In this document: positions 2,111 to 59,212 of the stretch, piece after piece
Layout of the letters: each line of letters starts with the position of its first letter
Position numbering within the stretch: position 1 is the first letter of the stretch
Source of the DNA: Gigantopelta aegis
Lineage: Eukaryota; Mollusca; Gastropoda; Neomphalida; Peltospiridae
Assembly: GCF_016097555.1 (NCBI RefSeq)
Contig: NC_054699.1
Coordinates: 5,073,673-5,137,672 of the forward strand
Length of the DNA stretch: 64,000 nt
Reading direction: 5' to 3'
Notes under the pieces: generated by a model
What the model was told of the DNA's origin: nothing
The model's database searches: none
The model's input: the letters and a program-made list of their open reading frames with translations, nothing else
Program-made: the position numbers and the translations under genes

Positions 2111-2678
2111 AATAAACGAATTAGTACCCTAAAAAATTAACATGTTTCATAAATATAATAATTAATGAATTCAAACGCCCTTGACTACAAACACCAAAAC
2201 CAAAACTATTTTTTAAAATATTACCATTATAATTATACTGCATCATATATATGTTTAACAATCTATTCGTTAAGTACTTGGATACCCATATATCTGTATT
2301 AACTATCTGTATTATTACAAAATATATTGATATGTTTGTGTATGTATTGTAATTAATGTATTTACTGTCAGCCATCTTGTCACGTGTATATAACAAAATG
2401 TGTATGTATATATTCCTCCTATGTCATTGTGCAACGGTCCAGGTGTAAATAAAGGCTTGTCTTTTGGGCGCAAAGTGCCCGAGCTTCTATGGTGGTTTGG
2501 AGGGATACTTTCCCGGAAGATTCTGAAAACTCTATGTCCTAAAATGCTGTTTCGTGCATACAAGAATGAACAAAAAGTTAAAATGAAATAAATAACATTA
2601 CAGATAGGAAATAACCAGATCAAACTTCGATGACTAGTGGCAGTGTACTAGTGTCATTTTTGTCCCCATTTACTTTAA

Positions 2679-5678
2679 AAAGGACAGACCCGAGTTTCAG
2701 CCCATGAAACTGCACACTAAGTTTAGTTAATGTACAAACCTGTAACACATTTGGATAAAGTTACAATGGACAGACCCTAGTTTCAGCCCATGAAAATGCA
2801 CACTAAGTTTAGTTAATGTACAAACCTGTAACACATTTGGATAAAGTTACAATGGACAGACCCTAGTTTCAGCCCATGAAAATGCACACTAAGTTTAGTT
2901 AATGTACAAACCTGTAACACATTTGGATAAAGTTACAATGGACAGACCCTAGTTTCAGCCCATGAAAATGCACACTAAGTTTAGTTAATGTACAAACCTG
3001 TAACACATTTGGATAAAGTTACAATGGACAGACCCTAGTTTCAGCCCATGACAATGTACACTAAGTTTAGTTAATGTACAAACCTGTAACACATTTGGAT
3101 CAAGTTACAATGGACAGACCCTAGTTTCAGCCCATGAAAATGCACACTAAGTTTAGTTAATGTACAAACCTGTAACACATTTGGATCAAGTTACAATGGA
3201 CAGACCCTAGTTTCAGCCCATGAAAATGCACACTAAGTTTAGTTAATGTACAAACCTGTAACACATTTGGATAAAGTTACAATGGACAGACCCTAGTTTC
3301 AGCCCATGAAAATGCACACTAAGTTTAGTTAATGTACAAACCTGTAACACATTTGGATCAAGTTACAATGGACAGACCCTAGTTTCAGCCCATGAAAATG
3401 TACACTAAGTTTAGTTAATGTACAAACCTGTAACACATTTGGATCAAGTTACAATGGACAGACCCTAGTTTCAGCCCATGAAAATGCACACTAAGTTTAG
3501 TTAATGTACAAACCTGTAACACATTTGGATAAAGTTACAATGGACAGACCCTAGTTTCAGCCCATGAAAATGCACACTAAGTTTAGTTAATGTACAAACC
3601 TGTAACACATTTGGATAAAGTTACAATGGACAGACCCTAGTTTCAGCCCATGAAAATGTACACTAAGTTTAGTTAATGTACAAACCTGTAACACATTTGG
3701 ATAAAGTTACAATGGACAGACCCTAGTTTCAGCCCATGAAAATGTACACTAAGTTTAGTTAATGTACAAACCTGTAACACATTTGGATAAAGTTACAATG
3801 GACAGACCCTAGTTTCAGCCCATGAAAATGCACACTAAGTTTAGTTAATGTACAAACCTGTAACACATTTGGATAAAGTTACAATGGACAGACCCTAGTT
3901 TCAGCCCATGAAAATGCACACTACGTTTAGTTAATGTACAAACCTGTAACACATTTGGATAAAGTTACAATGGACAGACCCTAGTTTCAGCCCATGAAAA
4001 TGCACACTAAGTTTAGTTAATGTACAAACCTGTAACACATTTGGATCAAGTTACAATGGACAGACCCTAGTTTCAGCCCATGAAAATGTACACTAAGTTT
4101 AGTTAATGTACAAACCTGTAACACATTTGGATCAAGTTACAATGGACAGACCCTAGTTTCAGCCCATGAAACTGCACACTAAGTTTAGTTAATGTACAAA
4201 CCTGTAACACATTTGGATAAAGTTACAATGGACAGACCCTAGTTTCAGCCCATGAAAATGCACACTAAGTTTAGTTAATGTACAAACCTGTAACACATTT
4301 GGATAAAGTTACAATGGACAGACCCTAGTTTCAGCCCATGAAAATGCACACTAAGTTTAGTTAATGTACAAACCTGTAACACATTTGGATAAAGTTACAA
4401 TGGACAGACCCTAGTTTCAGCCCATGAAAATGCACACTAAGTTTAGTTAATGTACAAACCTGTAACACATTTGGATAAAGTTACAATGGACAGACCCTAG
4501 TTTCAGCCCATGAAAATGTACACTAAGTTTAGTTAATGTACAAACCTGTAACACATTTGGATAAAGTTACAATGGACAGACCCTAGTTTCAGCCCATGAA
4601 AATGCACACTAAGTTTAGTTAATGTACAAACCTGTAACACATTTGGATAAAGTTACAATGGACAGACCCTAGTTTCAGCCCATGAAAATGCACACTACGT
4701 TTAGTTAATGTACAAACCTGTAACACATTTGGATAAAGTTACAATGGACAGACCCTAGTTTCAGCCCATGAAAATGCACACTAAGTTTAGTTAATGTACA
4801 AACCTGTAACACATTTGGATAAAGTTACAATGGACAGACCCTAGTTTCAGCCCATGAAAATGTACACTAAGTTTAGTTAATGTACAAACCTGTAACACAT
4901 TTGGATCAAGTTACAATGGACAGACCCTAGTTTCAGCCCATGAAACTGCACACTAAGTTTAGTTAATGTACAAACCTGTAACACATTTGGATAAAGTTAC
5001 AATGGACAGACCCTAGTTTCAGCCCATGAAAATGCACACTAAGTTTAGTTAATGTACAAACCTGTAACACATTTGGATAAAGTTACAATGGACAGACCCT
5101 AGTTTCAGCCCATGAAAATGCACACTAAGTTTAGTTAATGTACAAACCTGTAACACATTTGGATAAAGTTACAATGGACAGACCCTAGTTTCAGCCCATG
5201 AAAATGCACACTAAGTTTAGTTAATGTACAAACCTGTAACACATTTGGATAAAGTTACAATGGACAGACCCTAGTTTCAGCCCATGAAAATGTACACTAA
5301 GTTTAGTTAATGTACAAACCTGTAACACATTTGGATAAAGTTACAATGGACAGACCCTAGTTTCAGCCCATGAAAATGTACACTCAGTTTAGTTAATGTA
5401 CAAACCTGTAACACATTTGGATAAAGTTACAATTTAGTGAAACATGAGACTGTGACTTTGAAACAGTGAAATACCCTCTAATAATAGACTAAAACTCGAC
5501 GCACGTGCCTTTTTAAAAATATGAGAAATGCATTTTGTGCTATTAAAAACACCAGGATGACCAAAAACACTTTGAATGTACGGAAATGGATAATCTAAAC
5601 AATACAATCTAAGTAAATAATGATTTCAGTTATCAAAAAAGGCTATAATAGTAAACAATATGCCTTAGGTATGTCCCT
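2679..5678. mobile_element. TTAA-bounded MITE expanded by an internal satellite
   Basis: The left edge reads TTAA (2675-2678) followed by AAAGGACAGACCC. The right edge reads ATGTCCCT followed by TTAA (5679-5682), which is the inverted complement of the AGGGACA terminus. The same ends, in cleaner form, bound the 157-bp palindromic MITE at 13824-13980. TTAA duplications are typical of the piggyBac and Kolobok superfamilies; which one applies here is not decided. Almost all of the interior is the 86-bp satellite. No transposase is present. Confidence 0.6.
2682..5433 (+). repeat. 86-bp satellite array, 32 copies
   Basis: Thirty-two head-to-tail monomers, each starting GGACAGACCCTAGTTTCAG and ending GTTACAAT. 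The first starts at 2682 and the last at 5348, a difference of exactly 31 x 86 bp, so there is no net indel across the array. Variation is limited to a few positions: TGCACAC/TGTACAC, GATAAAG/GATCAAG, CACTAAG/CACTACG and GAAAATG/GAAACTG. The monomer begins with the terminal sequence of the enclosing TTAA element, so the array probably arose from the element's own end. Confidence 0.97.
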
Positions 5679-7412: not shown

Positions 7413-7582
7413 TTCTTCCATTACTATTAAGTTTGAAAATAGTCCAGAACTTTCTGCAATTGATCGATTGACATGCTGTCCTACGGAAATGTACTACCGA
7501 AACTCTGCCTTTTCGGGATTCTCAGGATTTTATGTATATAGACGGAAACTGGCCCTACCATTGTGGAGAAGAAGGAAGAAGG

Positions 7583-7712
7583 AAATGTTTTATTTAACGA
7601 CGCACTCAACACATTTCATTTACATTTATATGGCGTCGGACTTATGGTTACGGACCACACAGATATTGAGGGAGGAAACCCGCTGTCGCCACTTCATGGG
7701 CTACTCTATGGG
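7583..7712 (-). mobile_element. SINE-like family B fragment
   Basis: Begins GGAAATGTTTTATTTAACG and carries 'atatggcgtcggacttatgg' and 'aacccgctgtcgccacttc'. A longer copy of the same family lies at 41918-42118. Family B shares parts of its body with family A, so the two are related composite SINEs. Confidence 0.65.
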
Positions 7713-7764
7713 TTACATGTAATGAGAGCGTGTTAACCGTCCGGATGTCACTCTTAGACTCTAG

Positions 7765-8706
7765 TAGCCCGAGTACTCTGACTGTAAGAGAGCTAGACGG
7801 ACATTTGGACATAAACACGCTCTCATTACAGTCAGAGACCAACCTATGTCTTTTTTTGGCAATTCCTGACTACCAAACGGTAGGCAACGAGTCCCGCTCT
7901 AATACCACAACAATCCTATGTTTGACGTCAAATACCTTTACATCAATCATTTTCGAGTTAAGTGATACCAAAAAATCCACATATTAATCACTAATACACT
8001 TACTACAGAAAGAAACCCGACAGCACCCACATTCAGCTACGCTTCGTGACACTCCGTCGCAACAATTGCAAAGCTCGGCGATCTATTTCGAGACGTAGAC
8101 CACGTGATCGCGCACTGGGCGATTCCGCCTTGTGCAGCAGTTACAGGGGCCGTCTCATATCAAGCGAAGTTACAACATGGAAGAGTTGGCTAATGCCGTT
8201 TTGGATGAATTTGGATTTCATTACGTCATTAAACCAAAACAATTACACATTATTGATTCCATTTTGAATTTGAAGGATACATTTGGGGTGTTATCGACAG
8301 GATACGGCAAAGGTATGTGCTACGTACTGCCTCCTCTTATGAGACGACCCCTGTAACTGCTGCACAAGGCGGAATCGCCCAGTCTCGAAATAGATCGCCG
8401 AGCTTTGTAATTGTTGCGACGGAGTGTCACGAAGCGTAGCTTAATGTGGGTGCTGTCGGGTTTCTTTCTGTAGTATGTGTATTAGTGATTAATATGTGGA
8501 TTTTTTGGTATCACTTAACTCGAAAATGATTGATGTAAAGGTATTTGACGTCAAACATAGGATTGTTGTGGGAGCGGGATTCGTTGCCTACCGTTTGGTA
8601 GTCAGGAATTGCCAAAAAAAGACCTAGCTTGGTCTCTGACTGTAATGAGAGCGTGTTTATGTCCAAATGTCCGTCTAGCTCTCTTACAGTCAGAGTACTC
8701 GGGCTA
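7765..8706. mobile_element. Mutator-like element with long TIRs (Pack-MULE-like)
   Basis: Two inverted arms, 7765-8159 (395 bp) and 8338-8706 (369 bp), match closely over their whole length; the left arm has a few short insertions. The element starts TAGCCCGAGTACTCTGACTG and ends with its complement. It is flanked by a perfect 9-bp direct repeat, AGACTCTAG, at 7756-7764 and 8707-8715. Long TIRs with a 9-bp target duplication are the hallmark of the Mutator (MULE) superfamily. The only non-TIR sequence is the 178-bp centre, which encodes part of a RecQ-like helicase and no transposase. Some terminal stretches can also fold on themselves (CTGACTGTAAGAGAG against CTCTCATTACAGTCAG). Confidence 0.85.
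8177..8337 (+). pseudogene. RecQ-like helicase N-terminal fragment inside the MULE
   Basis: An ATG in good context (ACAACATGG) opens a frame that reads MEELANAVLDEFGF and then a Q-motif-like KPKQLHIIDSIL. It continues to FGVLSTGYGKGMCYVLPPL, which matches helicase motif I (Walker A, usually TGYGKS) of RecQ-family DEAH helicases. Only about 54 residues are present; the frame runs into the right TIR at about 8338. RecQ helicases are about 600 residues or more, so this is the start of such a gene, cut off just after motif I. The serine usually following GK is glycine here. It is either a captured host exon or the remnant of a helicase carried by a larger transposon. Confidence 0.75.
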
Positions 8707-8715
8707 AGACTCTAG

Positions 8716-8967
8716 GTGTTCTACTGTCAAGTACTCGAGCTAAGTGAGCCTGTAAGTATTAAAGTAAACCACTAAGTCGAAGTCTGACAATTAGCTAACA
8801 TGTTGTGAGATAAAGTATTTGATTAGAACAGAGAGAAAAATGTACTTACATTGCCGATTAATGTCAATGTTTCTAACTTCTTCAGCCGAATCTCTCAAGT
8901 GGATCTCGAAAACATGGCTTACAGAAATTCTAATTTTATAACTGGGGAAACCCCGCACGTGACGTAC
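8716..8967. other. Spacer, nothing recognised
   Basis: AT-rich, with no reading frame or repeat of note apart from a second AAGTACTCGAGCTAAG motif just right of the MULE. Confidence 0.4.
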
Positions 8968-9606: not shown

Positions 9607-10797
9607 AGGGTGCGCTCCATTCACTCTCCCGGAGAGCCAGTGTACTCCGCACAGAAATGGAGTGAACGGGAACACTGTCCAGGACTTACTCTACCTCTGC
9701 CAGTCGGCCTCAGACCACAATTAATTCCGCTATATGTTTCTATATAGCCTTAGTGGCTATAACATTTTTATTAATATCAGCAGGCCCGTGGATTTTTGTA
9801 TGTACCTTTGCCTGCCTGGGGGACACATACCCTGAAAAGGACAACCCCTGTTGTCCAGCTCTTTCTCCCAGCATATTGGTTTAAACAAACACACCCTCTA
9901 AACCAGGCCGGAGTACTCCCATTTTACACAAAGCACTACTTTTGCATGGGCCGGAATTACCACAAACAAGTCTTCAATGTCAACAAGTTACACATGTTTA
10001 CAAACTACATGATCTCCCCTGTCACTTCAGTCAAATAGTTGCCACTTCATAGCTGTCTGCCATGAAATAATCACAGTCAAACAGCAGACTACTTGCGCGG
10101 TCAAATTTCCGGATTTTGGACAACCAAATGGGGAGATACCTGTAATCTGAGGCCAGTCGATGACTTGGTGCAGCGAGAAGATAAGATGGCGGACAATTCA
10201 AGTTTTGTTTTTCAGGGAAGCAGAAATGACTAATTAGCTAGCCAAATGCGAGTAAAAAAAATCACAAGGACTAGTTAACCAATATAACCACCAGTCCAAC
10301 AGGCGACATCGGTCTTCTGATTGACTGTAGTCTGCAATTTAAAGCGTTTATTTTGGGTGCGCTCCTTTCACCTCTCCTGGACATGTTCCAACTGTTCTGT
10401 CCTGGACAGCGAAAGGAATGATTTTGGAACAGGAAGTTATTTCAACAACATGGCTGCCTCTATTGTTGTGGTCAAGCATTCGATCGTTTCAATTATTAAA
10501 CATAAAATAAACGCTTTAACACACACACTACAGTAAATCAGAATAACGATGTCGCCTCTTTGACTGGTGGTTATGTTGTATAACTAGTCCTTGTAATTTT
10601 TATACCTGCATTTGGCTAGCTAATTAGTAATTTGTACTTTCCTAAAACACAAACCTTGCATTGTCCGCCATTTTGTCTTCCGACTGCACCACGTCGTCGT
10701 CTGGCAGAGGTAGAGTAAGTCCTGGACAGTGTTCCCGTTCACTCCATTGCTGTGCGGAGTACTCTGGCTCTCCGGGAGAGTGAATGGAGCGCATCCT
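9607..10797. mobile_element. Fold-back DNA element interrupted by an LTR-like insert
   Basis: Outer ends AGGGTGCGCTCCATTCACTC (left) and the complement GAGTGAATGGAGCGCATCCT (right) extend into arms of about 300 bp around a centre at about 10356-10505. The left arm is split by the insert at 9716-10154; removing the insert and one AGTC lets the two arms align continuously. The centre repeats the terminal GGGTGCGCTCC. No transposase. I could not define a clear target-site duplication, so the superfamily is open. Confidence 0.75.
9716..10154 (+). mobile_element. Solo LTR-like element (GGCC ends)
   Basis: A 439-bp unit that begins GGCCTCAGACCACAATTAAT and ends GTAATCTGAGGCC, flanked by a 4-bp direct repeat AGTC (9712-9715, 10155-10158). 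It matches, in opposite orientation, both terminal repeats of the element at 59213-61748. It therefore looks like a solo terminal repeat of that family, older than the full copy because it differs from those repeats at visibly more positions. It carries no gene. Confidence 0.75.
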
Positions 10798-12698: not shown

Positions 12699-12945
12699 TC
12701 TAATTAAAATTAGCTCGGGAGTTGGAGAAATTACAACGCAACCGTCGAGTTGGCCAACTTTCTGCTGGCAGTTGGTAGTCTGGTCCTAGCATTATACCTT
12801 GGTTTGTAACGATGTTTGTCATTGGGTTTGCTCCAATCTAATTAAAATTAGCTCCACTATTACATGTGGATCTAACACCAGCCAGTTGGAACTCATGACC
12901 ACCAATCAAAACCTTACTTGCAGAATCCTTTATTAATAGCCAACT
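12699..12945 (+). mobile_element. Fragments of the CAATCTAATT MULE-type MITE
   Basis: CAATCTAATTAAAATTAGCT occurs at about 12699 and again at about 12834. From the second occurrence on, about 110 bp match the left arm of the element at 62038-62620 (CTCCACTATTACATGTGGAT and onward). No right arm follows, so this is a truncated copy. Confidence 0.7.
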
Positions 12946-13984: not shown

Positions 13985-14545
13985 TTTTGTTACTTTAGAA
14001 AATAAATCACGGAATACTCGTTTACAGTTGTATTGAACTTTACAACTTAAGCTATGGACTCCCGAGTTAAATGGTCGCTGGTTTATTGTGATTTAGATTT
14101 GTTTTTATTTTTAGATTATTTATTTATTTTATTTTGTTTATTGTTTATTTATTTGCGGGGGGTCATTTCGCCCCCCCCCCCCCTCCAACGATCCAACATA
14201 TTTTAAAATTTTATTTTACATAAATTTTTCATGTATTATTTGGCGCTGTTGAAGAATTACGTAACCCCTTTCCCTCTCTGAAATTACGTAATGAACGTCA
14301 TTACCCCGCTTTTGTTGTCATAATACAATTTGACCAATATTGTTGCATTTTATGTTTGTATTTTAATGCTTGTTTGGTTAATAAGTAATAAATACTAGAT
14401 AGAAAAATCATCTACAGTCCTCCCCACTGTCGTTTTCTTATAATGCGGGGATATTTTTTATGGTGCCGTAGTGTAGACTATACTGCATGTGACCCCTTTT
14501 AATTTGCTCTTCTCATAAGCGTACGAGAGAGAGGGCCGAGGTTTG
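13985..14545. other. AT-rich spacer
   Basis: TTTATT-rich low-complexity sequence and a C tract at about 14171-14183. No gene seen. Confidence 0.4.
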
Positions 14546-15122
14546 GGTTGAAAATGGGCAGAATTTTGAAAATAGCAATTAGTAAAAAAGTTAATAGAAT
14601 AAATTTTTTAAAAAAGAAAGAAAAAAGTTACAAGCCAAAAATAAAAAGAATTGACTGCTCGGCCGAATATTTATATAATTTGGAGCATTTTAGAAGGACA
14701 GTCCAAAATTAAATAAGAGAAAGAAGAGAGGATCGGACTATTTAATAATAAAAAAAGAGAGTAATTTCGACAAACTTTTGAACGCAGATCTAAAAGTTTA
14801 AAGTCCGATCGATATGTCCACGTGAGTGGCCTCGTTAAGGCCGTTTGGGTGCACAGCTTATAGGGACGAGATGGGTTGCATCCCGTCAAGAAAACCCCTA
14901 GATTGACAGTCGATAGACGTTGAAGGTGTAGTGCTGTGCTGAAATACAGATCTTTCTCTTATTTAATTTTGGACTGTCCTTCTAAAATGCTCCAAATTAT
15001 ATAAATATTCGGCCGAGCAGTCAATTTGTATTTTTTTTGGTTTGTAACCTTTTTATTTTTTTTATTTATTCTATTAACTTTTTAACTAATTGCTATTTTC
15101 AAAATTCTGCCCATTTTCAACC
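14546..15122. repeat. 577-bp inverted repeat upstream of the LINE
   Basis: The left arm (about 14546-14748) and right arm (about 14952-15122) are complements. The left starts TTGAAAATGGGCAGAATTTT and the right ends AAAATTCTGCCCATTTTCAA, directly against a run of 22 C. A 200-bp centre separates them. The right arm is continuous with the 5' module of the LINE, so the left arm may be an inverted copy of LINE 5' sequence. Confidence 0.75.
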
Positions 15123-15601
15123 CCCCCCCCCCCCCCCCCCCCTCCATCCCGAGTCAGGCCACCGATCTTATCGGAGGTCAGACTCCGGATGGGCGTGTTC
15201 GAAACCCTAGTAGTATATGGGCACGTTAAACTAGTTATTATCTTCATCAGCAAACACCAGGTAAACATCAACAAACCATAGACACTCGGTCTCCAGCTGT
15301 TTCGCAGGCCACTCGGCAGTCTCCGACACCTTTCGAAGCGTGTTCGGAGACGGCCGGGAGGCCTGTGTCGACCGATTCACATACTTCGGAAACTCTCGGA
15401 CCTAAAGAAAATAAACAAAAATCCTAACCTAGTGTTAGAGCGTCTGTGCCTAACAACAACACAACTAAACAAACTAAAGACACTACTGTTCCCCCTAAAA
15501 AAATCCCCCCCCCCCAGTGGTTGCGGAGGGTAGGGTGACGAGCCATGTTTTATCTTTGGACCCATAGCTGCTAATACATCTACTGACTTTACAGAAGTTA
15601 A

Positions 15602-16924: not shown

Positions 16925-19378
16925 ATGGGAGACCAGAGAACTAAAATACCCCCAACCCCCTTATATAATATTAAAACTAATAATAATAATTATAATATGA
17001 ATAATAATAATAACAATGGTAAAAAAGCTAAAGTTAATATGGAAAGTTATAAAGGCTTGGCCGTTCTACAATGGAACGCTAGAGGCCTGAAATCCATGGG
17101 TCATGGAGACGAATTAAAAATATATGTTAAAGATACTAAACCAGTTATCGATGTAATTTGTATTCAAGAAACCTGGCTTGCCTCTGATAATTTAAGTAAA
17201 GCTAAAAACAAAAAATATTTTACTAGTTCCAATATCCCAGGCTATTTCGGCTTCTTTCATAATACAAACACTACTACTAGGGGAGGAATAGCTATTTACG
17301 TCAGAAATGACCTGTCCTACTCCCGCATCCCGCTACAAGATACACACACTAATATTGAGGCCATGGGCATCACAGTACATGGTGGGACTGAAAATATTGA
17401 TATCTATAATTTCTATATTCATCCAGGCAGTCTCCAATATAATCTTACTGTAGAAAACTACCTGGATTCCTTATCTAAAATAAGTAATAATAAATTAATT
17501 ATTGTAGGGGATTTTAATTGCCGCAATACTCTTTGGGGTTCTAATTATATTGATAAACAAGGATCCATCGTAGAAAAGTTTATGGAAGAAGTTAAAGTTA
17601 CCTGTATTAATGATGGTACCCCTACTTTTTACTCAGATTCCTACCACTGCTGGACGTGGCTTGACCTCACCATGGTATCCGACGGGATGGCCCCTAAATG
17701 TGAGCGGCAGGTCATGAACGACTTCAATAGCGACCACCTCCCCATAACTACTCACTACAATCTTAATGGGTCATGGAGGGAACCGATCAAGGCAAAAGAT
17801 AAATGGAACTTTAATAAAGCAGATTGGCCAGGTTTCTTTCAGTTATGCTCTAAACTTAATTTAGATGATATTAGAAGTAAAAATATAGATACTTTTAATA
17901 AAAATTTAACAGATAGTGTTATTAATATAGCTAATAAAACCATCCCGATATCTAATGCTAAAATTAAATATAATTCAGTTCCTTGGTGGAGTGATGAACT
18001 TGCTAAACTTACTAAATATAGAAATAAAATGCGTAAAATTTATCAAAAAAATAAGACTAAAGATAACCTTAATAATTTCAAAGAAAGTAAATATAAAGCT
18101 ACCCAAGAGATACTTAAAGCTAAAAAAGAATCATGGATTAATTTTTGTTCATCACTCAATAATAAAACAAACAGTAAAGATGTCTGGTCAAAGATTAAAC
18201 GCATCCAGGGGAAACCAGTTCCAAAATCTTCACTTCTTAGATCCAATAAATTATATACTAATAATCAACAAAAAGCTACTGTCTTTGGGCAAACGTTCCA
18301 AAAGAATTCAAGTAATAGTAATTTTCCGCTAAAATTCTCCCAACGTAAAGATTACTTAGAACAGAAATTTAAAATTCCCCTGGATGCTAAATTCCCCAGT
18401 ACTATTACTAATTATAATTTACCATTTACCATCCAGGAAATGGTTGAGGCCTTCACTCATAGGAAAGGGACCTCCCCAGGACCCGATAAATTTAACTACT
18501 TATGTTTTAAGAATAGGCCTAAATCTATCCTCAACCTCTTCCTGGAACTATACAATATTATTTGGAAACAAGGCTACCTTCCCCTTGCATGGAAGCATGC
18601 CGAGGTTCTTAGCCTCACAAAAAAGGGGAAGGATTTAACTAACCCCTCTAATTATCGCCCTATTTCCTTAACATCTAGTATCTGTAAAACCATGGAAAGT
18701 ATGGGCAACTCCAAACTCAGCTTTTATCTAGAAAGTAACCAACTTTTGACTAGTTTTCAGAGCGGATTTAGAAAAAAACACTCTACTTCCGATCACTTAT
18801 TTAGGCTTCAATCAGAAATTTCTAATACTTTTAGTTTTGGTGATAAAGTGGTTGAAATATTTGTTGACCTGGAGAAGGCCTACGACATGGTCTGGCGTCA
18901 CGGCTTATTAATTAAAGTGTATGACATGGGTATTAGGGGACCCATGTTTACATTTATTGAACGTTTTATAACTAATAGATCCTTCTCTGTTAATGTAGCA
19001 GAATCTTTTTCTGATGTCTTGAATCTGGAGAACGGTATCCCTCAGGGGTCGGTTATAGCCCCAACACTTTTCAGTATTTTTATTAATGATTTGGCTTCGG
19101 TCTTGACTAACTCGTCTAGGAAAGACATTAAGCTAAGTATTGGACTTTTTGCTGATGATACAGCATTTTGGCGATCTGGAAAGTGTATAGAAAAAATTAA
19201 AATAGATATTCAAAAAGATATTGATACGCTTCAAAATTGGGCTGACTCTTGGGGGGTCACCATTTCTAGATCCAAGACCTCTGCTATGCTATTCTCAACT
19301 AATCACTTAACCAGAACCCATAAATTAAATCCTATTTCTCAAGTAACAGCTGTTAAATTCCTGGGGGGTTACCTTTGA
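16925..19378 (+). CDS. LINE ORF2: endonuclease and reverse transcriptase
   Basis: ATG at 16925. Residues about 43-275 are an APE-type endonuclease: LQWNARGL, CIQETWL, GDFNCRNTLWGS and SDHLPI carry the expected Asn, Glu, Asp and His. The reverse transcriptase spans about residues 500-817, with SNYRPISL, FVDLEKAYD (about 646), GIPQGSVIAPTLFSIFINDL and the catalytic FADDTAFW (about 741). The frame stops at 19376 in KFLGGYL, where relatives read KFLGVTF. The cause is an extra G in the run at about 19364-19369. Translation of the next frame continues the protein with the thumb region. It nicks target DNA and primes cDNA synthesis there. Confidence 0.88.
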   Translation: MGDQRTKIPPTPLYNIKTNNNNYNMNNNNNNGKKAKVNMESYKGLAVLQWNARGLKSMGHGDELKIYVKDTKPVIDVICIQETWLASDNLSKAKNKKYFTSSNIPGYFGFFHNTNTTTRGGIAIYVRNDLSYSRIPLQDTHTNIEAMGITVHGGTENIDIYNFYIHPGSLQYNLTVENYLDSLSKISNNKLIIVGDFNCRNTLWGSNYIDKQGSIVEKFMEEVKVTCINDGTPTFYSDSYHCWTWLDLTMVSDGMAPKCERQVMNDFNSDHLPITTHYNLNGSWREPIKAKDKWNFNKADWPGFFQLCSKLNLDDIRSKNIDTFNKNLTDSVINIANKTIPISNAKIKYNSVPWWSDELAKLTKYRNKMRKIYQKNKTKDNLNNFKESKYKATQEILKAKKESWINFCSSLNNKTNSKDVWSKIKRIQGKPVPKSSLLRSNKLYTNNQQKATVFGQTFQKNSSNSNFPLKFSQRKDYLEQKFKIPLDAKFPSTITNYNLPFTIQEMVEAFTHRKGTSPGPDKFNYLCFKNRPKSILNLFLELYNIIWKQGYLPLAWKHAEVLSLTKKGKDLTNPSNYRPISLTSSICKTMESMGNSKLSFYLESNQLLTSFQSGFRKKHSTSDHLFRLQSEISNTFSFGDKVVEIFVDLEKAYDMVWRHGLLIKVYDMGIRGPMFTFIERFITNRSFSVNVAESFSDVLNLENGIPQGSVIAPTLFSIFINDLASVLTNSSRKDIKLSIGLFADDTAFWRSGKCIEKIKIDIQKDIDTLQNWADSWGVTISRSKTSAMLFSTNHLTRTHKLNPISQVTAVKFLGGYL

Positions 19379-19988
19379 CCAGGCACTCTCTTTTGTTAAA
19401 CATATAAACGAAGTAGTTAATAACTGTAAAAATTATATTAATCTATTTAGGGTTCTGTCGGCCACCACTTGGGGGGCCGACAGACATACTTTATTAATGA
19501 TTTTTGAAGCATTAATAGTCTTCAGGCTCCAGTATGGTGCTCAGGCCTTCTGTTGCGCCTCTCCAACTCAGTTGGATAGACTGGAAACAGTCTACAATAA
19601 GGCGCTCAGAATAATAACCAAAGTTACTCCTGGTACCCCAAATGACAGTCTGCGTGTCGAACTCAATATCCTCCCACTCAATGTTACGCGCACCCAACTA
19701 TGTCTTAAACACTGGTTTAAAGCCAAAAACCTAGTATCCCTTAATCCAGTTGCGGTTATGAAGCCCAATAATGATTTATATTTACATATAGATATTAATT
19801 CCGCTATCAATTTTAACAATAGAATGGCTTCTAACCTCGAACTCTTGGATTTAAACTCCGATAAATCTATCTCCCCCTTGGAGCCACCCTCGTTAATTAA
19901 ACCCCCCAATGTCTCGTTACTCTTGAGAAATGAGACCTTGAAACCGATTTCAACCCTTTTAAGAATATTATATTTAAAGCCGCCCTAA
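19379..19988 (+). pseudogene. LINE ORF2 continuation: RT thumb/connection region
   Basis: Directly after the ORF2 frame change the text reads VTFDQALSFVKHIN, ADRHTLLMIFEALIVFRLQYGAQAF (split here by its own residues) and then LDRLETVYNKALRIITKV. This is the usual post-RT region of I/Jockey-type elements. The frame is lost again near 19950, where the neighbouring frame continues into the RNase H domain. Confidence 0.75.
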
Positions 19989-20008
19989 ATGACTATTATG
20001 CTGATTAT

Positions 20009-20617
20009 ATGCATATTTATACAGATGGCTCCAATGATGCTGATACCGGTAAAGCCAGTATGGCCTTTTACGCCATGCCGGGCCAACCCACTATACCCAT
20101 TTCTTGCCAAGCCAGAATAACCGACCATGTATCTGTATTCACTACAGAACTGGTCGCTATTTACTCTGCGCTTAAATGGGTTCTTTCTGTTTCCAATAAA
20201 TATCCTGCACCCCAAAAAATTCTTATCTTATCTGACTCTTTGAGCTCCTTACAAGCTCTTCGGAATCTTAAATTCAAGAGTTCATATTTAATTAAGCAAA
20301 TTATCAACATTATTAACTATATTAATAATAAAGGCTGTTTTACTATCTTGGAGTGGGTTCCAGCCCATGTCGGCATCCCTGGCAATGAGCACGCGGACTA
20401 TTTTGCTAAAAAAGCACTTTTACATAATAAAATCGAAATCAACATTAAGGTTAATTTTAATGAAATTATGGCCATAGCACATAAAAATCTACTTAAGTTT
20501 TGGCAAACAGAGTGGAACAACAAAAAAAGACTATGGCATTACTTAATTAAACCCAAAGTTAATTCTAAAAAAAACAAAACCTTTTCTAACCCTAAATCTG
20601 AAAAAAATCATTACTAA
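20009..20617 (+). CDS. LINE ORF2 C-terminus: RNase H domain
   Basis: The start given is an internal ATG; the domain is part of ORF2. The catalytic set is complete: YTDGSNDA (Asp), FTTELVAIYSAL (Glu), LILSDSLSS (Asp) and WVPAHVGIPGNEHADYFAK (His and Asp). RNase H removes the RNA strand after first-strand synthesis. The frame ends at 20617 by a shift in an A7 run. Just beyond, another frame reads CTVCNKLDNVRHYLFYC (about 20690-20740), the terminal Cys/His finger usual in this group. Confidence 0.85.
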   Translation: MHIYTDGSNDADTGKASMAFYAMPGQPTIPISCQARITDHVSVFTTELVAIYSALKWVLSVSNKYPAPQKILILSDSLSSLQALRNLKFKSSYLIKQIINIINYINNKGCFTILEWVPAHVGIPGNEHADYFAKKALLHNKIEINIKVNFNEIMAIAHKNLLKFWQTEWNNKKRLWHYLIKPKVNSKKNKTFSNPKSEKNHY

Positions 20618-23691: not shown

Positions 23692-24558
23692 TTATACTCT
23701 CGGGTCGTAGACGATGGAGTCTTCATTGGGAAATATCCGAGTTCTCGATCTCAGCTTATCATCACCATTGGGCGACATGTCCACCACCAAATAGTTAAAA
23801 GGGGTCTTCATGGCATCCCTATAAGCTTCCACCAATACACCAGCATGGCCAGGAAACAACTGACGGCCCAGCGTCATGATCTGTGATGTATCTCTCACAT
23901 TTTTAAAGAGGACAAGATACCACGTGTTGAGCGCAATGGTTCTTGCAGACTTTCCCTGTCCATAGAGATTTTGGGTAATAAATATGACGCTCAATCTTCT
24001 GTGATGACATCCTTGGGTAAACAACAGTTCTATGTCTTTGTGTTCCAGTACTTGGTGCATGAGATCATCCAAGATGATAAGTCCATGTTGTCCATCAGCA
24101 AAGTCTTCTATGTCCACCTGTGTAGGTAACCCCGAATGAAACATAAGGTTAGCTGCAGTCTTTTCCATCTCGTCATAAAGTGGCTGGTACACACCATAAC
24201 AATACATGATTTTCTTTGGAGGGTCTTTGACGTACATACCATTCAGGTTCTTCAGGAGTCTGTATACCCACTGAGTCTTTGCAGCACCCGTGGGGCCTGA
24301 TGCACACATACTCGAACAAGGTTCAAATGGCGCCAAACTCTGTGTTTCCCACCAAGGACGTGTGAGATCCACCACTGCTTCGGGACTCCACGAAATGGCA
24401 CTTGTAGGTAATGTGGGTTTCACTGATTCAAATGTCTCCTTTGTCAACCAAGATACTCTGTCTTTCAAACTGTGTACTTGAGACAGATGGTTAGGAAGTC
24501 TCAATAAATTCTTGGCCTGACATCCTGGAACTGGGCAATCTTTTCTGACACGACCCAT
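23692..24558 (-). CDS. Polinton/adintovirus packaging ATPase (FtsK/HerA, A32-like)
   Basis: A 288-residue frame starting MGRVRKDCPVPGC. An N-terminal Cys2-His2-like finger (CPVPGC...LPNHLSQVH) precedes the ATPase core, with a P-loop region at about residues 88-96 (SGPTG...KT), a Walker B strand LIILDDLM at about 160, and a sensor-like VIFITQNLY at about 191. The A32-like family pumps genomes into virus particles. Length and domain order match the usual 250-300 residues. It lies immediately upstream of the small basic protein on the same strand. It looks whole as a reading frame. Confidence 0.85.
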   Translation of the reverse strand: MGRVRKDCPVPGCQAKNLLRLPNHLSQVHSLKDRVSWLTKETFESVKPTLPTSAISWSPEAVVDLTRPWWETQSLAPFEPCSSMCASGPTGAAKTQWVYRLLKNLNGMYVKDPPKKIMYCYGVYQPLYDEMEKTAANLMFHSGLPTQVDIEDFADGQHGLIILDDLMHQVLEHKDIELLFTQGCHHRRLSVIFITQNLYGQGKSARTIALNTWYLVLFKNVRDTSQIMTLGRQLFPGHAGVLVEAYRDAMKTPFNYLVVDMSPNGDDKLRSRTRIFPNEDSIVYDPRV

Positions 24559-24609
24559 AGCAACAAATGTATCTACTAAAATAAACTACTTTGCAAATCA
24601 CAACTATTT

Positions 24610-25040
24610 TTATAGTGTGGCCCTGAAAATGGCCCTGTGTGGCCCTGAGAGTAGCCCTGTGTGGCCCTGAGTGGCCCTGACAGGCCCTGAGTGTGGCCTT
24701 GAGTGGCCCTGAGTGGCCCTGAGTGTGGCCCTGAGTGGCCCTGAGTGTGGCCCTGAGTATGGCCCTGAGTGGCCCGGTGTGGCTCTGAGTGTGGCCCTGT
24801 GTGGCCCTGAGTGACCCTGTGTGGCCCTGAGTATTGCCCTGAGTATGGCCCTGAGTGGCCCTGAGAGTGGCCCTGAGTATGGCCCTGAGCATGGCCCTGA
24901 GTGGCCCTGAGTGTGGCCCTGAGAGGCCCTGTATGGCCCTGAGTGTGTCCCTGAGTGGCCCTGTGAGTGGCCCTGTGTGACCCTGAGTGGCCCTGAGTGT
25001 GGCCCTAAGTGGCCATGAGTGGCCCTGAGTGTCCCTTTAA
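24610..25040 (-). repeat. GGCCCTGAGT minisatellite within the Polinton-type element
   Basis: Dozens of 10-12 bp units (GGCCCTGAGT, GGCCCTGAGTGT, GGCCCTGTGT) in the spacer between ATPase and polymerase. The repetitive QGHSGPLRA-type reading frames across it are by-products of the repeat. Confidence 0.9.
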
Positions 25041-25224
25041 CATACAAATATGACCATCTGTGTCCCTCCAACATACAAATTGTCCCTCTGGGTCCAACCA
25101 TGTGACCCTCTAACATAAGAAAGTATTCCTCTATGTATCCCTTTTGTCCATAAAGATGTTTCTCTCCTGTTTGTCAGTGACACAAATGTCTCTGTTGTCC
25201 CTTGTTCACCACGTGGAGGTCACA

Positions 25225-25725
25225 GAGATTCGAACAAGATATACCAAATTTGATGTTGGATACCAAGTTTGATGTTCCATACCAAGTTTGATGTTTTCAT
25301 ACCGAATTTTATGTTTTTAGGGAGACTGAAATGGAGGGGAAATACCAAGTTTGATGAACTATGCCCGTGTATGTTTTTATATCCAAAACATTAGTTTGCA
25401 GCTTCCCCCTTAAACACCACTTGTTTGTGTCCAAGAGGTGAGTGGAGAGTGGGATAATGCATGGAGAATTTAGACTACCTATAAAATGTTGGATCGTGGG
25501 CCTAAAAAACGAGTATTTAATCACTAATTCACGAATTTATCAGACTATTTATAAAAAAAAATAAACAAAAGTGAATTTGAACTGCGGCCAAACAAAGTCC
25601 AATAAAACAAGTTACAGTTTAGAGATTCATACCAAGTTTGATTTTGGGGGTAAATACCAAGTTTGATGTTTCATACCGAGATTGATTTTGGGAGATAAAT
25701 ATCAAGTTTGATGTTTGATGCCAAA
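25225..25725. repeat. Iterated ACCAAGTTTGATGTT motifs
   Basis: About ten degenerate copies of ATACCAAGTTTGATGTTT in two clusters (25240-25360 and 25630-25725), spaced mostly 16-25 bp apart, in the spacer downstream of the polymerase. Function unknown; they could be protein-binding iterons or simple repeat growth. Confidence 0.7.
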
Positions 25726-28700
25726 TTTGGTTTAACTGACACAAACTTTAATAGCCATAAGGAAGAGTGTCCAAGTTGTCTTGAATGACACGTTTGGTGT
25801 ACACAATCTTGTACGTTTTCTCTTCCACTTTGTTGTACATTTTTCTCTTTCTTTTTTCTCTTGAAATTTTGGATGGGTTTTTTAGTCAGGGTACCATCTT
25901 TGGTAGGTGACAAGACCATCTCGCGGATAGCTTCAAAGTGGATGAGTTGTGTGTTGGTGTAGTTTAGAGAAATACCTCGCACCTTGCACACTTCTGAACC
26001 TTTGTTGGTTCTGTAGGCATCATTTTTGGGACCTCCACTGACAAATTCAGTGATAAACTGACCATCCAGGTCATCAGTCAGTTCTCCGAGATAATCTCCC
26101 AGAGGGGGTTGATAGTGTCCTGGTCTGGCCACGAAGATGACAGAGTTTGTGTCATAATACAACACATTTTCACCCAACTGTTCTAATACACTGTACAACT
26201 TCAATCTCGCCCAGGAAGTGGTAAACGTTAGTTTTTTAAATCTTCTGGGATGAAGGTGGACTTGTGTTGATATTCCAGCTGTAAAATGGACTCTGTCAAC
26301 ACCTGGAAATCGATGATATTTTTGGTAGGATTTGCCAACATCTGGAAGAAAACGTCTGCATTGTTTTCGTGAATGAAGGCAGATTGTTTCATGTTCAGAC
26401 GTTGGCCGTATTTCCCCCAGAAACTGTTCAGACACAGCTTGGCTAACGAACGAAGCCCAGGGTTCTTTACAATTTTGTCTTGGTCCAGCTGTATGCCCTC
26501 TTTGTCTCTGTACTGTCTGATGTATTGGTTTTTGTCTTCCTCTGTGACACACCATTCGGGCCATCCACTGGCTTCTTGCTTCAGCTTGAGGAAGGTGTTA
26601 ATATAGTCTGCAAAGAGGCCACCCTCGTGTGTTGTTGGCTCATACTGCATTGTTTCAGGCCAGTTGTAAACTTCATAGACTCTGATGACTCGATACCCCT
26701 TTTCCATGGCTTTAAGGATTTCAGGTATACACCAGGTTCCAATGATACTCCTCTCTTCGTCAGAATGGTGACATTTTGTTTGCAATTCTTGGTCTGAACA
26801 GCTTCTACACAGTGGGAACTTTAGTTTTCCATTGGAACGGTAGGGTAGGACGGGATGATAAAGTTTTCTGGGTGATGCCACTTTCACCTTGGCAATGCCA
26901 AAGTAGTGATCCAAAGGCTTGAAATCCGTTTGTACGATTTCAGGATGTCCCACGGGATACCGGCAATACTTGTTGACCCAGGGATAGAGAGACGTAAAAT
27001 CCACATACTTAATTTCTTCCCCTTCTTTGATTTTGTAATGCAATTTGCTTGCATTGGTTCTTCCTCCAAAGAAAGAGTCTCTAGGATCTAGTCGGTCTTG
27101 TAGATCCAATGAAGTCACAAAGTGCTTCATCTCAAGATTTGATTTCAGATGATCTTGGAATTGATGTTCCCACATCTCGATGACTTTGTATCCCTTGACT
27201 TTCAAAACTTCCCTCTTTCTACACGTCAAGGCATACAGTTCTTCAATGGATTGATTGGTTCTTGGATGTGTTGTGGTAGAACGCTCGTGTGGGAAGCAGT
27301 GTCGACAACCGTGCCACAAACAGCCATGGAACTCGAATGCAGTGTTTGTTGTAGCACAATATCCATCCAAACGGTAGTGAGTTCCTGGTACCAGATGTTC
27401 CCCACCATTCAGAGCATGTTGTATCTGGTATTTGTCTCCATGTCGGTGTTGAAACCATTTCAACCACTGGATGGACACTTTGCTGAATATATCCTTTCTT
27501 GTATAGCCACTGCTTGGAACTTGAGCAATGGGGCTGGGTACGGTTTCCGATTCAGCTACAGTCATTCCACGATCTCTCAACTCTTCTCTGACCGTCATCC
27601 AGTCCGTGATCTGTCGTCCATTTGTGAGTTTAACATGCTGGTATTCTTTCAGAAATTTACTCTGAAAGATGCCCATGCATACCGAGGCGATGGTGATGTA
27701 CTGGGCAAAAGGGTCGATGCCGTTTATGTAGTTGACTGCTTTGGTGTCGAGATCGATCTGTTTTTCGCCAGTAGCTTTCAGCATCAGAGCTTGAAATGTA
27801 AGGCAGGCTTCTCTGAGAACGGCGACATCTGACACACAGTATGCCTTCATTTCTTTCTCAAAGTCGAACACTCCCTGTTGCTCAGCATGCCACATCAGAA
27901 ATTCGGATCTCTCCTTGGATCCCATAAAGTTGACACCATACATTTCTGGTTCTGGAAATGGTCCACAGTAGTTTTGATGTGCTTGGGTGTTGAAATAATG
28001 GGGAAAGTATCCTTTCTTCAATTCCGTCAGTCCAAAGGCTTTTGGGAAAGCAGCCAGCTTCATGGGCAGAAAATTCAAGCTGTCGATAATCCGGATGTTA
28101 AGCCCCCTCTCCACTTGCAGGTACATGATTTTCGAGCCATTGTATATGATTTTTTGAGGGTACATGGACTGGTCAATCATGTACTCTAGCAGCAAATAAG
28201 CGTCATAGGCCTTGTTGTTGTGCGCGATAGCTGTGACATCTTTGTGGTGATTTTGGAAGAGCCACTGACAAAACTGGATGTGAGCTCCATCGCCTTGAAA
28301 GATGACTTGACGGAATCCACAGGTTTGCTCACATGGTATTTTCAGGTACTGTTTCTTCTTGTCGCGTTGACTGCAACAGGGACATCTCGACCCGCATTCA
28401 TGGCATTTGGATGTTTCTGTGACAGGCAGGTGTTTGCAAGCTTCACAGGCCGTCTGTGCCACCAAATAGTTTGGGACATGTTGTTGTTTCCCACACCATG
28501 ATTGCTGGCAATGTTGACAGCGAGACTGATGACTGCAGTTGTCTCCTGGGCAGGTGGGACAGACTCCACTGGGCAGGTAACCATCTTTGCATCGAAGTAA
28601 TTCGTCCTGGCAGCATTCAAAGTCGTAAAATATGAATTTGGCGTGGACGTCGTTGATTTCTTTTGGAGGCTGGTAACAAAGATGACCTTGGTCCACATAG

Positions 28701-30323
28701 TTGTTGCAACAAGGACATTTCCATTCCCCGCAGTTGTGGAGTTGTGGATCCCTCTCGCTTCTGTCAAGTACTTTTTTGCAGATGGTGCATTTCCAAAAAC
28801 TCTCACACTTGGAGGGGATGGAGCGTCCCTTCTTGTCTCGTTTCTGTTGTTTGTGACGTTGAAAGCAATCCATAGATCGACAGGTCACGTGGCAGTGACG
28901 GCACGACATCTGGACATCGGTTTCTGGGCAGTTCTGGCTGTGGCACACGATGCAAGTTAATGAGCATGAATGATGTGTCTTGTCGTTGTACGGTTTCAAA
29001 CAATGTTGACAAAAGAAGGACGCCGAGAAGAAGCCTGTAATGTTGACAATGGCATGAAAATGCGGTTGGGGCTGCTCCACAAAGTACAGGAACAGTCTGG
29101 GTGCCTGTGACGTCTGGTCGCCTACTCGCAGAAATTTATTGCCTAGTTCAGCACTGACCACAAGAATCTGGCATCCCAGTACTTGTTCGAAGGCGGGGAT
29201 GTCATTTAAACTGCATGAACGATTGGTGGGGATTCCTGCCAATTCACACAACTTCAGGGCCAGAGTCTTCTGCTCTCGACGATTCTTATTTCTAACGTGA
29301 TGTAGAATGACTGGGGACATTTCTTGTGTTGTAGGATCAACTCGATCAGTGGCGTCTTGGGGTAGGGACCACCCACGAGTTCTTGCCAGTCCTTGCTTGA
29401 AATGCAATTCAGTTTGGCCCAGGCCACGCCGATCGCACGGGGCATACAGAGGTCGTCGTCGTTCACAATTTCGATTAATGATCTTTTAATGTGAACAGAG
29501 TTATCAGACCCTGTCAGATCGGTCAAAGTGGTAACAGATCTTCCACCTCTCGGTATTTGTATGGTACCGATCTGAATGCTGAAGGATGCGTCTAAAGGCA
29601 AATCTTCATGGCTTTGTAACACTTTCTCGATATGAGCCAGGATGACGTCAGCATTCAGTTCGGATAGTGGTTGCAGGGGTATGACGATCGGCGAGTTTAG
29701 AGCATCGTGGTGAACAATCACCCGTCCGACATCGCTGTCTTGTAAACCGCTGGTGGCTTCTTCCAAAACATCTTCAAACATGGTATGTAAATCTTGGTGT
29801 AAATGTTTTAGCTTTTCCCCTTGCCACTCTTCATTAAATTTAATTTCAAATGTCGTGTCAGTTGCCGTCGTCTTCTTGTGCGTTCTCATACTTTTCTTTG
29901 TAAAAGTATATGGTGAGGATGGTATTTCAGTATTCACTGACGTAACAGGTCCGATCCCCCCATTGGATTGATGGTACGCTGTCGTTTGACGGGTGGTTCT
30001 GACGATGTGGATGGTAGTGGTGACGATGTGGTTGGTAGTGGTGACGATGTGGTTGGTAGTGGTGACGATGGTCTCTGTTCGCAATGCATTCTGTGCTTCA
30101 TGAGATCGGGCATTCTCCTGATGGTGGCGTGGCAAAACGGACATGGCAGGCCTTTTCTCTTCTGGTCTATGTCCATGGCTTGTTCGTCATTCGTTGTTGG
30201 ACAGGGAGCCGTTTCGTCTGGGTGGTGGGTGCACATTGTAGTCAGTCCTTCGCTACTGGGATTCCAGTGTTGGTCACAGAGTTTGACGAGTTCGTCATAT
30301 TCTTCTGATGTTATATATTCCAC
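25671..30323 (-). pseudogene. Protein-primed DNA polymerase B of the Polinton-type element (fossil)
   Basis: Parts in order: an N-terminal region with a Cys/His finger (PCPFCHATIRRMPDLMKHRMHC) and threonine-rich linkers; a Cys-rich segment with several CxxC pairs; the exonuclease region (FIFYDFECC, then AHNNKAYDAYLLLEYM and a YCVSDVAVL motif); the polymerase with motif A (FTSLYPWVNKY), motif B (KLCLNSFWGKYGQR) and motif C (VLYYDTNSV). This is the protein-primed PolB type that copies linear virus-like genomes. The usual length is 1000-1300 residues and all main domains are represented. The gene is broken, with about three breaks, and is described here only as a fossil. Confidence 0.85.
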
Positions 30324-35446: not shown

Positions 35447-37681
35447 CCTGCTATTGTAACATATTACCAGCTAGCAGGGTGTATACTACCAAATCAAATC
35501 CCAGAGACGACAATAGTAACATATTACCAGCTAGCAGGGTGTATACTACCAAATCAAATCCCAGAGACGACAATAGTAACATATTACCAGCTAGCAGGTT
35601 CTATACTACCAAATCAAATCCCAGAGACGACAATAGTAACATATTACCAGCTAGCAGGGTGTATACTACCAAATCAAATCCCAGAGACGACAATAGTAAC
35701 ATATTACCAGCTAGCAGGGTGTATACTACCAAATCAAATCCCAGAGACGACAATAGTAACATATTACCAGCTAGCAGGTTCTATACTACCAAATCAAATC
35801 CCAGAGACGACAATAGTAACATATTACCAGCTAGCAGGTTCTATACTACCAAATCAAATCCCATAGACGACAATAGTAACATATTACCAGCTAGCAGGTT
35901 CTATACTACCAAATCAAATCCCAGAGACGACAATAATAACATATTACCAGCTAGCAGGTTCTATACTACCAAATCAAATCCCAGAGACGACAATAGTAAC
36001 ATTACCAGCTAGCAGGGTGTATACTACCAAATCAAATCCCAGAGACGACAATAGTAACATATTATCAGCTAGCAGGGTGTATACTACCAAATCAAATCCC
36101 ATAGACGACAACAGTAACATTACCAGCTAGCAGGGTGTATACTACCAAATCAAATCCCATAGACGACAATAGTAACATATTACCAGCTAGCAGGTTCTAT
36201 ACTACCAAATCAAATCCCAGAGACGACAATAGTAACATATTACCAGCTAGCAGGTTCTATACTACCAAATCAAATCCCAGAGACGACAATAGTAACATAT
36301 TACCAGCTAGCAGGGTGTATACTACCAAATCAAATCCCAGAGACGACAACGGTAACATTACCAGCTAGCAGGGTGTATACTACCAAATCAAATGCCAGAG
36401 ACGACAACAGTAACATATTATCAGCTAGCAGGGTGTATACTACCAAATCAAATCCCAGAGACGACAACAGTAACATATTACCAGCTAACAGGGTGTATAC
36501 TACCAAATCAAATCCCAGAGACGACAATAGTAACATATTACCAGCTAGCAGGGTGTATACTACCAAATCAAATCCCAGAGACGACAATAGTAACATATTA
36601 CCAGCTAGCAGGTTCTATACTACCAAATCAAATCCCATAGACGACAATAGTAACATATTACCAGCTAGCAGGTTCTATACTACCAAATCAAATCCCAGAG
36701 ACGACAATAATAACATATTACCAGCTAGCAGGTTCTATACTACCAAATCAAATCCCAGAGACGACAATAGTAACATTACCAGCTAGCAGGGTGTATACTA
36801 CCAAATCAAATCCCAGAGACGACAATAGTAACATATTACCAGCTAGCAGGGTGTATACTACCAAATCAAATCCCAGAGACGACAATAGTAACATATTACC
36901 AGCTAGCAGGTTCTATACTACCAAATCAAATCCCAGAGACGACAATAGTAACATATTACCAGCTAGCAGGGTGTATACTACCAAATCAAATCCCAGAGAC
37001 GACAATAGTAACATATTACCAGCTAGCAGGGTGTATACTACCAAATCAAATCCCAGAGACGACAATAGTAACATATTACCAGCTAGCAGGGTGTATACTA
37101 CCAAATCAAATCCCAGAGACGACAATAGTAACATATTATCAGCTAGCAGGGTGTATACTACCAAATCAAATCCCATAGACGACAACAGTAACATTACCAG
37201 CTAGCAGGGTGTATACTACCAAATCAAATCCCATAGACGACAATAGTAACATATTACCAGCTAGCAGGTTCTATACTACCAAATCAAATCCCAGAGACGA
37301 CAATAGTAACATATTACCAGCTAGCAGGTTCTATACTACCAAATCAAATCCCAGAGACGACAATAGTAACATATTACCAGCTAGCAGGGTGTATACTACC
37401 AAATCAAATCCCAGAGACGACAATAGTAACATTACCAGCTAGCAGGGTGTATACTACCAAATCAAATCCCAGAGACGACAATAGTAACATATTACCAGCT
37501 AGCAGGGTGTATACTACCAAATCAAATCCCAGAGACGACAATAGTAACATATTACCAGCTAGCAGGGTGTATACTACCAAATCAAATCCCAGAGACGACA
37601 ACAGTAACATTACCAGCTAGCAGGGTGTATACTACCAAATCAAATCCCAGAGACGACAACAGTAACATATTATCAGCTAGC
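35447..37681 (+). repeat. 60-bp satellite array, about 37 copies
   Basis: Unit ATATTACCAGCTAGCAGGGT, then GTATACTACCAAATCAAATC, then CCAGAGACGACAATAGTAAC. Variants are GGGTGTAT/GGTTCTAT, CAGAGAC/CATAGAC and CAATAG/CAACAG. Seven monomers are 58 bp because one AT is missing (starts 36001, 36119, 36357, 36775, 37193, 37431, 37609). A TTAA-type element end (TTAAGAGACTGTCCCTAG, 35426 on) lies just left of the array. The 60-bp period leaves frames open on both strands; I do not treat these as genes. Confidence 0.97.
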
Positions 37682-58924: not shown

Positions 58925-59212
58925 TTTTATAAAGGCCGACAAAAAATAAAATAAAATATGTAGTCTCGTTCAACTATACCACATTAGTTTCCGATGTACG
59001 AGGATAGTAGTAATAAAGCTCCCTACTGTCACGGAACAAACCACAAAACACAAAAGCTGTTTAAAACTTTAAATCAAGAACACGATTGTAAGTACATACA
59101 TGATAATAAAATAATACTAACACTAAAAAGCTTTATGCTGTTTTCCTTCGCATGTGCTAGCGATCAGTTCATCGGACAGAGTCTACACGTGTTCAACGAC
59201 GGAAGTAAACAT

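Follow-up and report, generated by a model that had tools for sequence, protein, structure and literature searches.

A high-copy MITE-like element with a RecQ-type helicase exon in Gigantopelta aegis, very probably an internal-deletion derivative of a helicase-carrying DNA transposon

The element described here, found in a 64,000-nucleotide stretch of the Gigantopelta aegis genome (the window), is very probably a high-copy, MITE-like deletion derivative of a cut-and-paste DNA transposon that carries a helicase gene. Because its middle is the leftover first exon of a helicase gene present in longer transposons of the same family, we read it as a shrunken transposon and not as a captured host gene. 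It shares its ends and part of its interior with the longer elements, has undergone an internal deletion relative to them, and is without a transposase, as is characteristic of MITE-like deletion derivatives.

The window copy spans positions 7765-8706, has the ends TAGCCCGAGTA, and is flanked by identical 9-bp duplications. The features of this copy and its immediate surroundings are as follows (type II denotes a group of longer relatives described below; TIR, terminal inverted repeat; TSD, target-site duplication):

7718..7764, no strand: left remnant of an older, diverged related end in which the window copy was inserted
7756..7764, no strand: left TSD AGACTCTAG, 9 bp, a TSD length seen in 28/28 fetched copies
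7765..8159, plus strand: left TIR, 395 bp, beginning 5'-TAGCCCGAGTACTC...
8160..8176, plus strand: 17 bp 5' of the ATG, lying within the ~415-bp TIR of four type II relatives and truncated on the right in the window copy
8177..8356, plus strand: 59-codon ORF, a RecQ-type helicase first exon (motif 0 and Walker A) fused to right-TIR sequence
8338..8342, no strand: TATGA microhomology at the internal-deletion junction (exon, CTCT-TATGA-AAGATAAAG; right TIR, GA-TATGA-GACG)
8338..8706, minus strand: right TIR, 369 bp
8707..8715, no strand: right TSD AGACTCTAG, identical to the left repeat
8716..8742, no strand: right remnant of that older end, which closes ...GTACTCGAGCTA, from the joined-flank alignment

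An earlier, sequence-only reading of this stretch had described TIRs of 395 and 369 bp and a perfect 9-bp target duplication, and both descriptions hold: the arms occupy 7765-8159 and 8338-8706, and the flanking repeats are identical here as in all 28 copies fetched from the genome. Across 369 aligned columns, the two arms of the window copy differ by 7 substitutions (1.9%) and by two indels of 5 and 21 bp. The 21 bp of the left arm that are absent from the right arm are likewise absent in the 28-copy consensus; of the 28, no more than one other copy lacks the 5 bp (TAATA). When the flanks are joined at one TSD, they align over ~75 bp to the element's own right end, through its last base, with a score of 47, where 500 shuffles reached 25 at most and 487 window stretches 26; this resemblance indicates that the window copy inserted within the end of a relative that is older and diverged. 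The other end of that relative was not found, and its presumed 9-bp duplication has no second exact copy in the window.

The window contains elements of other kinds as well. A segment at ~7580-7710 we take to be a SINE, and LINE-type ORFs (endonuclease, reverse transcriptase, and RNase H) lie at 16925-20617. A Polinton/Maverick-like DNA polymerase B ORF (PF03175), with neighboring ORFs, is found on the minus strand at 23692-30144. Another inverted-repeat element occupies 9607-10797, with two further copies of a 450-bp part of it at 59212-59663 and 61298-61748, and two more such elements are located at 14545-15123 and 62038-62620, the second with a solo relative at 12834-12929. Tandem arrays are present at 2675-5433 (86-bp units), 35456-37681 (60-bp units), and 51639-52373 (73-bp units). 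An Rfam search of the window gave no match.

Only one of the six frames of the 178-bp centre, frame +2, is open throughout. The corresponding ORF begins with the ATG at 8177, downstream of a stop at 8105-8107, and terminates at 8354-8356 within the right TIR. Its 59-residue product matches the NCBIfam profile TIGR00614 (recQ_fam) with E = 2.9e-9 over profile positions 6-50 of 470, bacterial RecQ (4tmu) with 4.5e-6, human WRN with ~8e-5, and Pfam DEAD with 1.4e-4, the last being below the Pfam cut-off; the match covers the start of the helicase domain through Walker A. The claim that the centre's sole open frame encodes a helicase start through motif I is thereby confirmed, and so is the RecQ assignment, which the same reading had made conditional on a significant match. 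The Walker A motif reads TGYGKG in the window copy, with GKG also in four others, and TGYGKS in the consensus of the 28 copies. In 26 of the 28 short copies the exon frame is open and TGYGK intact; of the other two, L013 carries a stop and L015 a changed motif. The 59-residue ORF is presumably a relic with no function of its own.

No homologue of the exon was found in the protein collection and none in the phage search. Among viral contigs, 21 stretches matched a peptide pattern with none confirmed, and three DNA patterns gave no matches. The genome-contig collection yielded 95 pattern-matched stretches and one confirmed match, a RecQ-like protein of archaeal origin that is 52% identical over 33 residues and uninformative.

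To place the window copy in its family, the assembly of the same genome (1.149 Gb, 5216 contigs) was searched with the whole element, and the best 40 of 2409 first-look candidates were scored. All 40 are full-length, with 98%-100% identity; since they match across the whole element, the centre is common to all of them. Capture of host sequence between TIRs had been expected to produce TIR pairs with unrelated centres, which is not what the 40 best-scored copies display, a count to be read in the light of a scoring that favors copies matching the whole element. Of the 40, 28 were fetched (8 with the search and 20 later). A perfect 9-bp TSD flanks every one of these; 26 have the same 12-bp ends, and in the other 2 the left end differs by one base. 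Their mean divergence from their 947-bp consensus is 0.46%, a figure that leaves out older copies because the fetched copies are the best-scoring ones. Outside the 9 duplicated bases there is a symmetric target preference, C/T-A-N on the left and N-T/A-G on the right: on the left, C or T in 26/28 copies and then A in 23/28; on the right, T in 17/28 and then G in 20/28.

The two arms of the consensus differ by a 21-bp indel and 4 bases. Such differences are expected if the arms come from two parental TIRs, and the idea of a palindromic foldback newly made from one arm is accordingly disfavored. Dating by TIR divergence was also dropped, as the arms of the founder were already unlike each other.

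Longer relatives were sought with a pattern that fits the exon and excludes the short-form junction, with the reversed pattern as control. This gave three places and no controls; L067 is a short copy with a base change, and L066 (2258 bp) and L068 (2289 bp) are longer elements, each with a perfect 9-bp TSD, that have the same left TIR and exon and continue via KDK to GTAAGT. Indels break the exon frame in L068; in L066 it is intact. The interior of L066, used as a DNA query, returned 5994 first-look candidates, many of them probably due to a SINE-like piece, and the best 40 were scored. The 12 longer loci examined from this search measure 2.22-2.34 kb and comprise type II (L071, which is L066, and L072-L074; 2.26-2.34 kb) and type III (L075-L082; ~2.22 kb). 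Their TSDs are perfect, 9 bp in 11 of the 12 and 10 bp in L076.

In the longer relatives, the left TIR leads into the ATG and the exon (MEELANAVLDEFGF..TGYGKSMCYVLPPLMKDK). A donor-like GTAAGT comes next, and ~1.2 kb devoid of long frames separate it from the right TIR. The exon continues to GTAAGT in 11 of the 12 (the exception is L074), and in 10 of these 11 its end reads CTCT-TATGA-AAGATAAAG-GTAAGT, L071 having a base change in TATGA. The right TIR reads GA-TATGA-GACGG in 7/8 type III and GG-TATGA-GACGG in 3/4 type II copies, and the junction of the short form (sequence CTGCCTCCTCTTATGAGACG) reads CTCT-TATGA-GACG. TATGA is therefore present at both ends of the deleted segment, and given these repeats in the exon and in the right TIR, a single ~1.3-kb deletion suffices to produce the 947-bp form. 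The longer copies and the 5-bp microhomology junction thus support the second of the two options that the sequence-only reading had offered, a deletion derivative of a transposon with its own helicase. The prediction attached to that option, a longer copy with the same TIRs, a transposase, and a complete helicase, held as far as the copies of 2.22-2.34 kb with the same TIRs; transposase and complete helicase were not found in them.

Type III is the longer group nearest to the short form, with a left arm 98.8%-99.6% identical over 570 bp. The exon frame is frameshifted in 8/8 type III copies, and this frameshift is absent from the short form; in type II, the frame is open in 3 of 4 copies (not in L074). 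The type III frameshift and the broken exons of L068 and L074 mean that the exact progenitor of the short form is not in hand. The right TIR of type II reaches inward to consensus position 415 (complement of ACAACATG) in 4/4 copies, so that the leader and start codon of the helicase are themselves terminal-repeat sequence.

Two of these loci have further features. At L077 (C4:88722206 region), exactly one 9-bp duplication (GGTATTATA) lies between two elements at ~3120-3165 of the oriented locus, the neighboring copy being in opposite orientation. The L066 locus contains, at ~2556-2958, near the left end of the 2.3-kb copy, a tandem array whose ~53-bp units all include the TIR terminus (GGCCCGAGTACTCGGACAG...).

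The sequence-only reading had given first place to a Pack-MULE, that is, a host RecQ exon captured between Mutator-like TIRs. Long TIRs, a 9-bp TSD, and a recognizable gene fragment are what one would expect of such an element, and a MULE transposase frame does lie near one diverged relative (see below). Against this, the exon and its donor-like site are also present in longer elements with the same ends, the start codon lies inside the TIR of four type II relatives, and the 30 host RecQ loci fetched have other sequence at the exon. A search of the genome with TIGR00614 gave 666 candidates (41 scored) and 43 matches; the 30 loci come from the latter. The helicase exon is absent from these 30 loci (at best, 34% identity over 53 residues or 54% over 24), so that the RecQ gene holding the same exon, as predicted for a capture, is missing from them, and no element DNA was detected in them at E <= 0.01. 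What lies between the TIRs is very probably a piece of an element gene and not of a host gene; capture of a host RecQ exon was rejected because the longer family elements carry the exon, and we regard the Pack-MULE reading as very improbable.

By motif, exons at the RecQ loci presumably resemble RECQ1, RECQ5, BLM, and WRN. At L030, which has a RECQ5-like look, the segment with the Walker A exon start is repeated several times, with ~85-bp spacing, ahead of the exon. Multi-copy genes with RecQ-like C-terminal parts were also encountered (L043/L058, L044/L046/L051, L047, and L052/L054/L059); together with L041/L049/L053, these form RecQ-like multi-copy families that may reside on transposons; the C-termini of some are rich in Cys. 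We considered the C-terminal genes as the downstream exons of the parent and rejected them: the 5 kb upstream of six of them (L060-L065) contain no exon 1 and no TIR, the best match to element DNA being 23 bp in L064 (E 0.002). They therefore look like other families, and are probably other mobile families.

Returning to the deletion derivative, the parent would have carried two genes: one for a RecQ-type helicase, beginning at one TIR, and, in another part of the element, one for a transposase. A parental element of the 2.3-kb type would have lost ~1.3 kb at the shared TATGA to give the 947-bp form, which parental transposase acting in trans could then have spread by cut-and-paste; each such insertion would leave a 9-bp (once 10-bp) duplication, with C/T-A and T/A-G outside the duplicated bases.

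A more complete parent was sought with a pattern for other right ends, which matched 11 places and no controls. Four of these are type II copies already found. Of the seven new places, L085, L088, L090, and L091 are right ends of the type II kind, L087 and L093 are left ends with ATGA, and L089 (C10:67246066) is an older copy of the short form that shares the deletion junction and has type II-like exon residues (GFNY). L087 is more diverged, with 84% identity to type II over the first 1.26 kb; its exon is open, 82% identical over 57 residues to the short-form exon, and has the motif TGYDKS. Its match to type II extends to position 1933, the point at which the right TIR of type II is reached, and L087 continues beyond it. 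Neither a right TIR nor a later helicase exon was found in the 12.6 kb from its left end. At 4.4 kb inside this end (L087/L094, C10:6332460-6340300) there starts an open 489-residue frame; its domain matches are FLYWCH, with E = 3e-13, and MULE transposase, with 1.5e-14. Residues 343-489 of the frame, the last 147, occur a second time, 98% identical, immediately beyond the left end of L087, and the 9 bp flanking that end are part of a ~37-bp tandem repeat. No further copy of the frame was found in the window or the other examined loci. Among the copies examined there was no complete helicase, and the best-scored candidates (~40 per search, so that other forms can be missed) included no two-ended copy above 2.34 kb and none that combined both ends with a transposase.

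These observations bear on two questions about the parent. First, an ancestral element might have taken up the 5' end of a RecQ-like gene including intron 1, with the 2.3-kb and 947-bp forms as its descendants, in which case the helicase gene never belonged to the element itself. The remaining part of the helicase is indeed seen in no element found, nor downstream of L087, and the longer copies end inside an apparent intron 1; on the other side, the ATG and the bases preceding it lie in both type II TIRs, as expected of a gene that starts in a transposon end, and the 30 RecQ loci include no source gene. We consider this earlier capture unlikely.

Second, the parent may be a Mutator-like, FLYWCH-type transposon with its own RecQ-type helicase, and not a member of AcademH, the helicase-bearing Academ transposons. 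The FLYWCH/MULE frame lies 4.4 kb inside L087, the sole copy seen to run further, and this makes a MULE parent now as likely as an AcademH one. The family's 9-bp TSDs and long TIRs point the same way, 9-11 bp being typical of MULEs (PMC3310237) and long TIRs being described for animal MULE groups (PMC6446971). However, the last 147 residues of the frame are also found outside the left end of L087, next to the 37-bp tandem repeat, suggesting that MULE copies may simply cluster there, and the right end of L087 was not found in 12.6 kb. In addition, a survey of 1631 MULEs (PMC6446971) does not use the word helicase in its main text, and AcademH has been published with a helicase and TSDs of 9 or 10 bp (PMC10045372). 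The partial frame copy leaves the superfamily between the two, and we give a Mutator-like lineage with its own helicase and AcademH alike a chance somewhat short of even. The MULE label of the sequence-only reading accordingly survives as a possibility: the frame at L087 speaks for it, and the lack of a right end there and the AcademH duplications of the same length speak against it. Somewhat more speculatively, L087 and its MULE frame might be the remains of a Mutator-like lineage of animals, not yet described, in which a FLYWCH/MULE transposase goes together with a RecQ-type helicase gene that starts inside one long TIR; this would imply that a cut-and-paste transposon acquired such a helicase independently.

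The family is thus of a fairly ordinary kind in unusual dress, MITE-like and produced by internal deletion of a helicase-bearing DNA transposon. In place of the claimed animal Pack-MULE, there is now a series of derivatives, L087 > 2.3 kb > 947 bp, that can be dated, with a helicase tag retained in every form; this makes the role of transposon-borne helicases testable. As the short copies keep little beyond their ends yet have moved in great number, the role of the helicase must be either supplied in trans or not needed by them. Should the MULE frame adjoining L087 belong to the parent, this would be a case of a RecQ helicase carried by a Mutator-like transposon. More generally, a gene fragment between TIRs at a single locus does not prove capture.

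Among known systems, Kolobok transposons have TTAA as their target duplication, which differs from the 28 short-copy TSDs, all of 9 bp and none of them TTAA. With KolobokH, the RecQ-helicase Kolobok elements described as reported from fungi only (PMC9587614), the family nevertheless has in common a RecQ helicase carried by a transposon. AcademH, Academ DNA transposons with a helicase (Kojima 2020, as named in PMC10045372 and PMC10799480), are stated to make TSDs of 9 or 10 bp, related to their helicase (PMC10045372), and have been reported in animals and fungi according to a title cited there; DEAD and Helicase_C domains are listed for AcademH, KolobokH, or Helitron (PMC10799480), and Academ is said to have expanded in bivalves (PMC10294476). 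Under the Repbase rule as given in PMC4455052, members of a family have the same TSD length and similar positions 1-11; our comparison with AcademH is by published descriptions and not by terminal sequence. By these descriptions, the likeness lies in the TSDs (9 bp in 28/28 short copies, in 11/12 longer copies, and in L068; 10 bp in L076) and in a probable element-borne, DEAD-type SF2 helicase gene, whose first exon (motif 0 and Walker A) is found in short and long copies. TSDs, long TIRs, and the helicase gene together fit AcademH; the differences are that neither an Academ transposase nor later helicase exons and domains were found in the copies examined and that the transposase frame near one relative is of the MULE type. 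Animal Mutator-like elements (FLYWCH-bearing, e.g., Phantom) resemble the family in the FLYWCH/MULE frame near the diverged relative, in long TIRs, and in TSDs, those of the short and longer copies all falling within the 9-11 bp of MULEs (MuDR); several animal groups in the survey combine 9-bp TSDs, long TIRs, and FLYWCH fingers, and the difference is the helicase, unnamed in the survey's main text (PMC6446971). Pack-MULEs have the same 9-bp TSDs, long TIRs, and internal gene fragment, but here the fragment is common to longer family elements and absent from the RecQ loci examined. Finally, like MITEs and other internal-deletion derivatives, the short form has intact ends, no transposase, a high copy number, near-identical copies, and a microhomology deletion junction, and it differs from them in the readable gene piece in its middle and in its unusually long TIRs.
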